16,292 bases of DNA from Nitrospinota bacterium. GTDB lineage: Bacteria; Tectomicrobia; Entotheonellia; J063. Where the stretch lies: positions 1-16,292 of the forward strand of contig RFHZ01000369.1 in NCBI GenBank assembly GCA_003696125.1, written 5' to 3'. Made by a program: the position numbers and the translations under genes. This document shows, in pieces, positions 4,148 through 6,433 of this stretch. The notes beneath the pieces were generated by a model. It saw only the letters and a list, made by a program, of their open reading frames with translations. It ran no database searches and was not told the origin of the DNA. Numbering within the stretch: position 1 is the stretch's first letter; each line of letters starts with the position of its first letter.

Positions 4148-4918
4148 TTGGAGGACCAATTAAAACGGTTGGTTACCTTACAGAAGCTTGATCGCGAGAT
4201 GCGAGAACTGGAAGCGCTCAAGGCCCGCATTGCGCCGTTCCTGCAAGAGGCACGGGGGGAGGTCATCCGGTGTCAGGAGGCCCTGCAGAAGCAGGAGCAG
4301 GCTGTCACCAATCTAAAGAAAGAGCGCAAGAGGAAAGAATCACAGATCGAGGTCGAAGAACTCGCCCTGCAGAAAGCCAAGGGCAAGCTGTTGGCGGTGA
4401 AGACGAATCGTGAATATACGGCGGTACTGGAAGAAATAGATACCATTCACCGCCGTATCGACTCCCTCGAAGATGAGGTGCTGGCCCTCATGGAAGCGGT
4501 GGAAAAGGAAGAAGAGGTTGTACGCACGCTCACGGCCCGCCTCCAGCAGGTGGAAGAGGAGTACCGGGCGGTAGAGCGAGAAAAGGAGGGGGAGAGGGAA
4601 GAGCTCGACCGCCTCTTGGCCACGAAAGCGCAACAGCGGCAAGCCTTGATGGAGGAGCTTGACCCGACCCTCGTAGACCAGTATACCCGCATCGCTCACA
4701 ACCGGAATGGCCTGGCCGTCGTTCCCCTCAAGGACGATATCTGCCAGGGCTGTTTTTTGAGTCTCCCCCCGCAGCTGTCACACGAGCTGCGCAAGTATGA
4801 GCGGCTGATTACCTGTTCCCACTGTCAGCGTATCCTCTACTGGCCAGAAGAGCAAGAGGCACAGGGTGAACCCACCACAGGCGAAGAAGCCGAATCGCCA
4901 CGCCAAAGTTTACATTGA
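4148..4918 (+). CDS. Coiled-coil protein with C-terminal C4 zinc ribbon (COG1579/DUF164 type)
   Basis: The 256-residue protein has two parts. Residues about 5-180 are almost entirely charged heptad-like sequence rich in E, K, Q and L, predicting a long antiparallel coiled-coil hairpin. The C-terminal zinc ribbon has C199-x2-C202 and C223-x2-C226 (ICQGC and TCSHC). A conserved stretch, KTNREYTAVLEEI, lies in the coiled coil. This is the architecture of the COG1579 family, which includes H. pylori HP0958. Members have been tied to nucleic-acid binding or adaptor roles, but the general cellular function is not settled and I assign none here. The start is TTG 4148, with GAGGAGA (4135-4141) six bases upstream; the ATG at 4141 is out of frame. 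The gene follows the tRNA by 41 bases, and its last 53 bases overlap the RNase HI gene. Confidence 0.85.
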   Translation: MEDQLKRLVTLQKLDREMRELEALKARIAPFLQEARGEVIRCQEALQKQEQAVTNLKKERKRKESQIEVEELALQKAKGKLLAVKTNREYTAVLEEIDTIHRRIDSLEDEVLALMEAVEKEEEVVRTLTARLQQVEEEYRAVEREKEGEREELDRLLATKAQQRQALMEELDPTLVDQYTRIAHNRNGLAVVPLKDDICQGCFLSLPPQLSHELRKYERLITCSHCQRILYWPEEQEAQGEPTTGEEAESPRQSLH

Positions 4919-5300
4919 TGGAGCTTCGCGGGGAAATCCGGGTCGGGCGGCAGCAGGGGTGGTCTTCTATGACCAGCAAGGCACGCTGATCGAAGAAGTG
5001 GGGAGGTATCTGGGGGAGACGACGAACAATGTCGCCGAATACCAGGGATTGTTACTGGCCCTGCAACGTGCCCAGGCATTAGGTATCCGCTCTCTAGAGA
5101 TCTTCTCCGATTCCCAGCTTCTCACCAAGCAGCTGAACGGTCACTATCAGGTCAAATCTCCCCACCTTTTACCCCTCTATCGGCAGGTAAAACAATTGAT
5201 GCAGGCCTTCGAGTATGTTACAATACGGTACGTTCCCCGTACGGCGAATCAACGAGCTGATCGCGTAGCGAACAGGGCGTTAGAAGAAGGGCTAAAGTAG
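4866..5300 (+). CDS. rnhA: Ribonuclease HI (RNase H1 family)
   Basis: The enzyme cleaves the RNA strand of RNA-DNA hybrids, removing primers and R-loops. The 144-residue protein has the whole RNase H fold and the DEDD metal-binding set: D18 (YIDGASRGNPG), E58 (NNVAEYQGLL), D82 (IFSDSQLL) and D132 (NQRADRVAN). The histidine that E. coli RNase HI has before the last Asp is not obvious here. A loop reading VPRTANQRAD takes its place, as in the shorter bacterial RNase HI-like proteins that lack the basic handle. The GTG start at 4866 has AAGAGG at 4854-4859. No other standard start codon lies between it and the conserved first strand, so the 53-base overlap with the zinc-ribbon gene appears genuine. 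The last codons and stop lie inside the terminal helix of the following RNase P RNA. Confidence 0.93.
   Translation: MNPPQAKKPNRHAKVYIDGASRGNPGRAAAGVVFYDQQGTLIEEVGRYLGETTNNVAEYQGLLLALQRAQALGIRSLEIFSDSQLLTKQLNGHYQVKSPHLLPLYRQVKQLMQAFEYVTIRYVPRTANQRADRVANRALEEGLK
5196..5224 (+). promoter_or_regulatory. Candidate promoter for rnpB, inside rnhA
   Basis: TTGATG (5196-5201) is followed after exactly 17 bases by TACAAT (5219-5224). A TG at 5216-5217 sits one base before the -10, giving the extended -10 TGTTACAAT. Transcription would start near 5231, leaving a leader of roughly 50-60 bases before the mature RNase P RNA. It lies wholly within the RNase HI coding region, so codon constraint could also have produced it. 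Confidence 0.45.
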
Positions 5301-5685
5301 CGCAGACGATCGCTGGCATCCCGGGGGGATGCCAGAGGAAAGTCCGAGCTCCACAGAGCAGAATGCTGGATAACGTCCAGGCGGGGTGACCCGACGGAAA
5401 GTGCCACAGAAAAGAGACCGCCTGCTCCCGGGCTCTCCGGGAGGGGGTAAGGGTGAAAAGGTGAGGTAAGAGCTCACCGCACTTCCGGTGACGGAAGTGG
5501 CAGGGCAAACCCCATTCGGAGCAAGGCCAAATAGGAAAGCGCTTGAGGGTTGCTCGCCCGATGCTTTCGGGTTGGCCGCTTGAGGTATGAGGTAACTCAT
5601 ACCCTAGAGGAATGATCGTCGCCGTAAGAGTGTGCCCGCTCTTACGGAACAGAACTCGGCTTATGCGCTGCTTTAGTCCTTCTTC
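5283..5685 (+). repeat. 22-bp terminal inverted repeat enclosing the RNase P RNA
   Basis: Bases 5283-5304 pair with 5664-5685 over 22 consecutive positions, with only two G-U wobbles (5291 with 5677, 5298 with 5670). The inner part is RNase P helix P1. The outer part covers the last five sense codons and the stop codon of rnhA on the 5' side, and the presumed trailer on the 3' side. Confidence 0.9.
5292..5676 (+). ncRNA. rnpB: RNase P RNA, bacterial class A
   Basis: This is the catalytic RNA subunit of RNase P, which removes 5' leaders from pre-tRNAs. The diagnostic conserved regions appear in order. They are GAGGAAAGTCCGAGCTCC (5335-5352, 5' strand of P4), the AGAGACCGCC and GGGTGAAAAGGTG stretches, GAGCAAGGCCAAATAG, GGTTGGCCGCTTGAG, and ACAGAACTCGGCTTA (5650-5664, 3' strand of P4). 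Helix P1 is formed by at least 5292-5304 with 5664-5676. P2 is GACGATC (5305-5311) with GATCGTC (5614-5620). P3 is an 8-bp hairpin at 5313-5335. The core matches E. coli-type class A throughout and lacks the Bacillus class B layout. The mature ends are estimated from P1, since the helix can continue nine more pairs outward on each side. It lies between rnhA and the dcw promoter. Confidence 0.96.
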
Positions 5686-5857
5686 CTCTCCGAGCTGTGC
5701 ACTTCGAGTGGCAGGGGGAGGCTCCCTTTTCCTGATTTTTCCCGGCTCGTTTTGCTCGATGTCCCTGTGACGATGGCCCTCCGGGTCGTTTCTGCTCCTG
5801 GGGAACGAAGTGGGGGGATTTCCCAGAGAAAAGAGGGAGAGAAGGCCAACTTTTTTC
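5686..5857. other. Intergenic stretch between rnpB and the mra promoter, no gene seen
   Basis: About 170 bases hold no convincing coding frame or RNA gene. There are two weak dyads. One is GGGA-GGC-TCCC (5716-5726) followed by TTTT, a poor terminator candidate for rnpB. The other is a bulged stem around 5770-5789. The last part is T- and A-rich and may serve as upstream promoter sequence for mraZ. Confidence 0.5.
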
Positions 5858-5876: not shown

Positions 5877-5905
5877 TTGACAAGAGCACAGGGAGTGTGT
5901 ATAGT
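5877..5905 (+). promoter_or_regulatory. Pmra, sigma70 promoter of the division/cell wall cluster
   Basis: TTGACA (5877-5882, perfect) and TATAGT (5900-5905, five of six) are separated by exactly 17 bases. Initiation would fall near 5912, about 39 bases before the mraZ ATG. A 13-base palindrome, CTCTTG-A-CAAGAG (5874-5886), is centred on the -35 hexamer. The MraZ repeats begin four bases past the predicted start, the expected place for autorepression. It is the strongest promoter match I found in the window and probably drives mraZ through murC and beyond. Confidence 0.85.
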
Positions 5906-5950: not shown

Positions 5951-6433
5951 ATGTTCCTGGGAAACTACCAGGTCAAGATGGATGCCAAGGGACGGATTAG
6001 TATCCCGGCCAAATACCGCGAGGTCTTGTCTACCGAATATGGCCCTGAACTGATCCTCACCACCCTCGACCACTGTATCGAAGCCTATCCGAAACAGGAA
6101 TGGCTCCTCCTCACCCAACAACTCCAACGCCTCCCCTCACTCAAGCGCGACGTGCGGATGCTGATGCGCGCGCTCTTCTCCACGGCCCACGAATGCACCC
6201 TGGATAGCCAAGGGCGAATCCTGATCCCTGCCCCCTTGCGTGAGTACGCCGACCTCAGAGGAGACGTGGTTATCCTCGGGGTCAATACCAAGATCGAAAT
6301 CTGGAGCAAGGAGCGATGGGACGCCTATAACAGTTCGGGACGAGAGCAACTGGTAGAAATTGCGGATAAACTTGCCGAACTTACCATGGAACGAGGGCAA
6401 AACCTTGCAAGCGATCGCTTCCTCCAGACCTAA
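5951..6433 (+). CDS. mraZ: Transcriptional regulator MraZ
   Basis: MraZ is a ring-forming DNA-binding repressor of its own dcw operon. The 160-residue protein has the two tandem SpoVT/AbrB-like half-domains that define the family. The first carries DAKGRISIPAKYRE (D11, G14, R15). The second carries DSQGRILIPAPLRE (D85, G88, R89). The length is close to the E. coli protein (152 residues). The start is ATG 5951 with GGGGAGAGG five bases upstream. An in-frame opening to 5810 would run through the promoter and is discounted. Three cognate repeats lie directly upstream. Its 3' end overlaps the start of rsmH, which implies translational coupling. Confidence 0.97.
   Translation: MFLGNYQVKMDAKGRISIPAKYREVLSTEYGPELILTTLDHCIEAYPKQEWLLLTQQLQRLPSLKRDVRMLMRALFSTAHECTLDSQGRILIPAPLREYADLRGDVVILGVNTKIEIWSKERWDAYNSSGREQLVEIADKLAELTMERGQNLASDRFLQT
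6393..6397 (+). promoter_or_regulatory. Ribosome-binding site deciding the rsmH start
   Basis: GAGGG lies seven bases before TTG 6405, inside the end of mraZ. A stronger-looking AAGGAG at 6433-6438 is badly placed: no standard start codon follows it before the conserved HLPVL. The TTG is therefore preferred. Confidence 0.5.

Follow-up and report, generated by a model that had tools for sequence, protein, structure and literature searches.

A lengthened P1 helix in an RNase P RNA whose gene overlaps the end of rnhA

Introduction

In pre-rRNA, the leader and the trailer pair with each other to form a long helix, which serves as a processing stalk for RNase III. A different arrangement has been described for the RNase P RNA gene (rnpB) of Staphylococcus aureus, wherein RNase J trims a read-through RNA spanning gpsB (SA1279) and rnpB back to the boundary of the P1 stem, P1 itself having been proposed as the block that protects the end (PMC3937233). 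In thermophiles, contact between P1 and L9 is reported to stabilise RNase P RNA (Marszalkowski et al. 2008, as cited in PMC4227106), and this contact is all that a literature search for extended P1 helices in thermophiles yielded. Here we describe an rnpB gene from a bacterial contig of 16,292 nucleotides (the whole stretch of DNA that was analysed, hereafter the window), in which the 5′ arm of an extended P1 reaches into the coding region of the upstream gene, rnhA.

Results

Genes located in the window include dnaG, rpoD, a tRNA gene, a gene for a CT398-like protein, rnhA, rnpB, mraZ and further genes for division and cell wall synthesis, all of which are on the plus strand (Table 1). The rnhA product exceeds the cut-offs of both Pfam RNase H domains and also matches NCBIfam RNase HI families, at scores below their cut-offs. 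A strong sigma-70-like promoter (TTGACA-17-TATAGT) lies upstream of mraZ at window positions 5877-5905.

Table 1. Features of the window at and around the rnpB locus
Feature	Position	Strand	Evidence
Gene for a CT398-like zinc-ribbon protein; precedes rnhA and overlaps it	4148..4918	+	Pfam PF24481, PF02591
rnhA, RNase HI of RVT_3 type	4866..5300	+	PF13456 1.8e-28, PF00075 3.4e-13, ORF
Putative sigma-70-like promoter inside rnhA (TTGATG, 17 nt, TACAAT, extended -10 TG)	5196..5224	+	Promoter-like sequence; inferred start near 5231
5′ arm of 22-bp P1 (5283-5293, extension past Rfam P1)	5283..5304	+	Direct pairing, partition function, phylum covariation of pairs 12-19
rnpB, class A RNase P RNA	5294..5678	+	RF00010, 345.1 bits, E 4.6e-113, model 1-367 of 367
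rnhA stop codon TAG inside P1	5298..5300	+	Sequence
3′ arm of 22-bp P1 (5675-5685, extension)	5664..5685	+	Pairing, partition function, phylum covariation of pairs 12-19
Intrinsic-terminator-like hairpin and T run	5712..5740	+	Sequence; fold of 5686-5745
mraZ, start of division/cell wall cluster, downstream of rnpB	5951..6433	+	TIGR00242 above cut-off

The match of the window rnpB to RF00010, for which the gathering score is 100, covers all 367 model positions, includes the P4 strands and the specificity domain, and contains few broken pairs. As in other RNase P RNAs, among which the length of P1 is variable, a P1 helix joins both ends of the RNA. Judged by this match, the RNA is of the ordinary class A type, with a lengthened P1, and its identification as RNase P RNA in an earlier, sequence-only reading of the region was correct.

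There are 22 uninterrupted pairs joining nucleotides 5283-5304 to 5664-5685, of which 20 are Watson-Crick pairs and two are G-U wobbles (G5291-U5677 and U5298-G5670). This helix had been noticed in the sequence-only reading, and both direct pairing and folding confirm it. The P1 stem of the Rfam model accounts for the inner 11 pairs, and thus the helix extends 11 pairs past the model. All 22 pairs form with probabilities of 0.81-1.0 when folding begins either at the inferred transcript start (5231) or at the rnhA start codon, and the computed duplex energy is -37.7 kcal/mol for the 22 bp compared with -15.7 kcal/mol for the 11-bp core. The last codons of rnhA are GAA GAA GGG CTA AAG TAG at 5283-5300. 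Because the frame ends at 5300, 18 of the 22 bases in the 5′ arm are coding or belong to the stop codon, which agrees with the earlier claim that the outer part of this arm encodes the end of RNase HI, and rnhA shares its last 7 nucleotides with the Rfam model and its last 18 with the helix.

To place this length in context, P1 was measured in 143 RNase P RNAs gathered from genomes across the bacterial domain. The median length of uninterrupted P1 pairing is 11 bp, and the window helix, earlier described as much longer than usual, is therefore about twice as long as the median. Chance pairing was estimated from a swap null, wherein the outer 5′ flank from one genome is paired with the 3′ flank from another. 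In the average profile of the 143 RNAs, excess pairing over this null mostly stops at position 11, and 11 or more further uninterrupted pairs arise in only 7e-5 of the swap trials. Six of the 143 RNAs, including those of the window and of its relative G001, have at least 19 uninterrupted pairs (range 19-24), and thus the long P1 represents a real and recurrent minority class that is not unique to the window. Uninterrupted runs and the swap null replaced a gapped stem alignment, which was dropped when bulges threaded through A/T-rich flanks gave long apparent extensions in many genomes. Among other genomes that were missed by the rnhA-overlap pattern described below, four loci (L164, L165, L176 and L267) have P1 stems with 16-24 uninterrupted pairs. 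At four further loci (L051, L124, L127 and L136), a T run is located directly 3′ of the P1 3′ arm, as if P1 were a terminator stem.

The phylum to which the window belongs comprises five species, each represented by one genome. Four of these, from three genera, have a complete rnpB and were compared (G000, which is the window genome, and G001, G002 and G003). The fifth (G004) was left out because its rnpB is cut off by a contig end, and no convincing match was obtained on searching for the 5′ half of this gene. The covariation analysis therefore uses four sequences, whose arms were hand-aligned with the P1/P2 junction and a GGCUUA motif as anchors. All four species have standard pairs at positions 12-19, and six of these eight pairs have changed on both sides. 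Changes on both sides occur at 11 of the 22 pairs in total, which is matched by none of 500 shuffles and by no slid register. Internal mismatches are present in the helices of G002 and G003. The sequence-only reading had proposed that compensatory changes should be sought in relatives outside the first 8-12 pairs. Because they reach pair 19, the proposal of a longer helix stands on these four sequences, with the exception of the outermost pairs 20-22, which are not conserved (present in the window, partly present in G003). On this pattern of compensatory change, the P1 extension is a conserved structure and a real part of the RNA, measuring about 19 bp across the phylum.

The gene preceding rnpB differs among these relatives. 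A cytochrome c gene is found upstream of rnpB in G001, where it ends some 345 nucleotides away and no gene overlaps the extension. In G003, the frame of a CT398-like zinc-ribbon protein enters rnpB with no rnhA in between (L003, minus strand, 1889-2728). On the other side, mraZ follows rnpB wherever the flank was read (window, G001 and G003). Since the extension is equally present without an overlapping gene or with a different one, the helix is kept for the RNA, and its overlap with rnhA is incidental. The DNA had earlier been viewed as constrained both as rnhA code and as RNA structure; the arm does code, and in G001 and G003 the extension is kept without rnhA.

Ordinary RNase P RNA genes carry a -10-like element 11-20 nucleotides before P1 (48 hits in this interval for 149 genes), which is positioned as if transcription begins at P1. 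At loci that overlap rnhA, promoter-like hits are found 71-90 nucleotides upstream, inside rnhA, where they frequently share a single codon position (TTGAAA-17-TATGATATTAT within LLK..F..YDIIH). The promoter-like site in the window is one codon off this common position, and it outscores synonymous-codon shuffles encoding the same protein (p about 0.005-0.01). This suggests that much of the rnpB RNA need not derive from a joint transcript with rnhA. The idea that every rnpB-adjacent rnhA has an internal promoter was rejected, because the window alone was clearly above synonymous shuffles among 18 genes. In another set of 84 loci, the window is one of 8 that reached p <=0.05 against such shuffles, and most other loci were not significant when taken singly. 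With the terminator-like hairpin downstream, the inferred precursor would span approximately 5231-5740 and thus contain both P1 arms.

There is a modest association between a long P1 and a distant putative promoter. Of the 49 RNAs in which a -10 element directly precedes P1, 1 has a P1 stem with at least 15 uninterrupted pairs, compared with 12 of the 94 others (Fisher p 0.035, uncorrected for phylogeny). Likewise, among rnhA-overlapping loci, P1 is longer with an internal than with an adjacent promoter (p 0.012, also uncorrected for phylogeny). When internal-promoter loci are compared with all other rnhA-overlapping loci, the difference in P1 length is not significant (p 0.11).

Among the matches listed, 53 genomes have both genes, and in 32 of these rnhA precedes rnpB on the same strand by no more than 1.5 kb, including 28 in which the distance is at most 120 bp. 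The 32 genomes mostly represent different families. A search pattern in which conserved C-terminal codons of RNase HI are joined to the rnpB core was also scanned in GTDB genomes, and it was found in at least 119 stretches. These are from bins labelled Omnitrophota, Myxococcota/Deltaproteobacteria, Dadabacteria, Nitrospirota, Spirochaetota, Elusimicrobiota, Saccharibacteria, Aquificota and others. Of 386 genomes sampled across the bacterial domain, 13 carry the exact pattern, and a backwards control pattern gave none among the matches listed. The rnhA frame overlaps the start of P1 in 68% of 72 measurable loci. Given this distribution, rnhA directly upstream of rnpB is an old conserved bacterial gene pair. 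No earlier description of the pair was found in the open-access literature searched, which does not prove that none exists.

Some overlaps go deeper. Four of 89 rnhA frames continue past P1-P3 and stop only at the TAA within the conserved GGGTAAC, with EESPGSTGQGAG as an example of the resulting tail. These four (L036, L117, L100 and L129) cross the GAGGAAAGUCC core, and the ribozyme core would therefore supply the codons for their RNase HI tail (EESPG..GQ.AG). Similar tails recur in differently labelled bins. In L129, a distal helix with 15 uninterrupted pairs (GATCTCGAGTCGAAG with CTTCGGCTCGAGATC) is encoded by the end of rnhA, making this a second clear case resembling the window. A proposal that rnhA overlap is associated with a much longer P1 is unsupported, as stems with at least 16 uninterrupted pairs occur both with and without the overlap, the two counts being 8/143 and 7/74; on average, P1 is one or two pairs longer with the overlap.

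Discussion

We propose, with a probability of roughly 60%, that P1, at 19-22 bp instead of the usual 11 bp, acts as a clamp on the two ends of a precursor that carries a leader. Transcription of rnpB would begin at the putative promoter inside rnhA, or would reach the gene by reading through from rnhA, and would yield a 5′ leader of about 60 nucleotides that contains the extension. The end of this leader would then pair with the 3′ flank, such that the ends of the RNA are locked together. Most likely, such a clamp would shield the ends from exonucleases, set the point where trimming stops, and with it the place of the mature ends, and stabilise the fold. The overlap with rnhA probably follows from an old and tight rnhA-rnpB pair, wherein the variable C-terminal tail of RNase HI can accept residues dictated by the helix. 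A search of all five genomes of the phylum, whose assemblies may be incomplete, gave no match to RNase J over the cut-off, and thus the clamp and trimming model would need another nuclease.

The main rival to an end clamp is cleavage by RNase III, by which both strands of the long P1 would be cut about one turn in, leaving a normal 11-bp stem. RNase III prefers approximately two turns of A-form helix, and 22 bp is near this length. The enzyme is encoded by the window genome (G000:C348, 253 bits, over the cut-off) and by three of its four class relatives, and the inferred transcript would present both P1 arms to it. However, we consider such a stalk unlikely, because no more than about 19 bp is conserved, with the internal mismatches in G002 and G003, and because RNase III processing of bacterial rnpB was not found in the literature searched. 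If the extension were instead merely tolerated, with a transcribed leader and trailer allowing neutral drift towards longer pairing, then compensatory changes at pairs 12-19 over three genera would not be expected. These changes make neutral drift quite improbable, even though it fits the wide differences in P1 length between lineages, the occurrence of long stems both with and without rnhA overlap, and the unconserved pairs 20-22.

Perhaps the least credible possibility is a linkage between the two genes, wherein ribosomes finishing rnhA on a joint transcript hold P1 open and translation of rnhA competes with formation of the RNase P RNA. Its appeal lies in the position of the rnhA stop codon inside P1, where most of the 5′ arm would be covered by a ribosome as it terminates, and in the many phyla in which rnhA frames run into rnpB. 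Yet G001 keeps the extension with no overlapping gene at all, and the promoter-like site inside rnhA would yield rnpB transcripts that are not translated, which together render a linkage of this kind highly improbable. An end clamp remains our preferred reading. A phylum that keeps a P1 of about 19 bp would provide a natural case for how the ends of an essential ribozyme are set, and this in bacteria that have RNase III and RNase E/G (the latter also present in the window genome) and no detected RNase J.

More notable than the long P1 is the old and repeatedly overlapping rnhA-rnpB pair. A tentative broader picture, which we would not yet favour, is that the pair is ancient, that the RNase P RNA starts inside the rnhA frame in many lineages, and that in some of these a promoter within rnhA codons is combined with a lengthened P1 that defines the ends. 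If this were true, then a single stretch of DNA would serve as protein code, promoter and ribozyme structure. Because rnhA is directly upstream of rnpB, and often overlaps it, in many unrelated genomes, annotation of the boundary can be wrong and deletion of either gene may damage its neighbour.

Relative to the class A consensus of RF00010, the window RNA matches the core and has P1 in the standard place, and it differs by 11 uninterrupted pairs that continue outward. Like the pre-rRNA stalk, its helix spans about two turns and would join leader to trailer, in this instance with 22 bp, about 19 of which are conserved. The P1-L9 contact of thermophiles, as described in the citing article, similarly makes P1 a stability element, and it differs in being a tertiary contact with loop L9 that involves no lengthening into a coding region. 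The S. aureus gene has gpsB upstream rather than rnhA and is processed by RNase J, whereas in the window P1 has twice the length and encloses the rnhA stop codon, and RNase J is not found over the cut-off. The likeness that we claim to the S. aureus system is that rnpB would also be transcribed from within or through an upstream protein gene and then trimmed to an end that is protected by P1.
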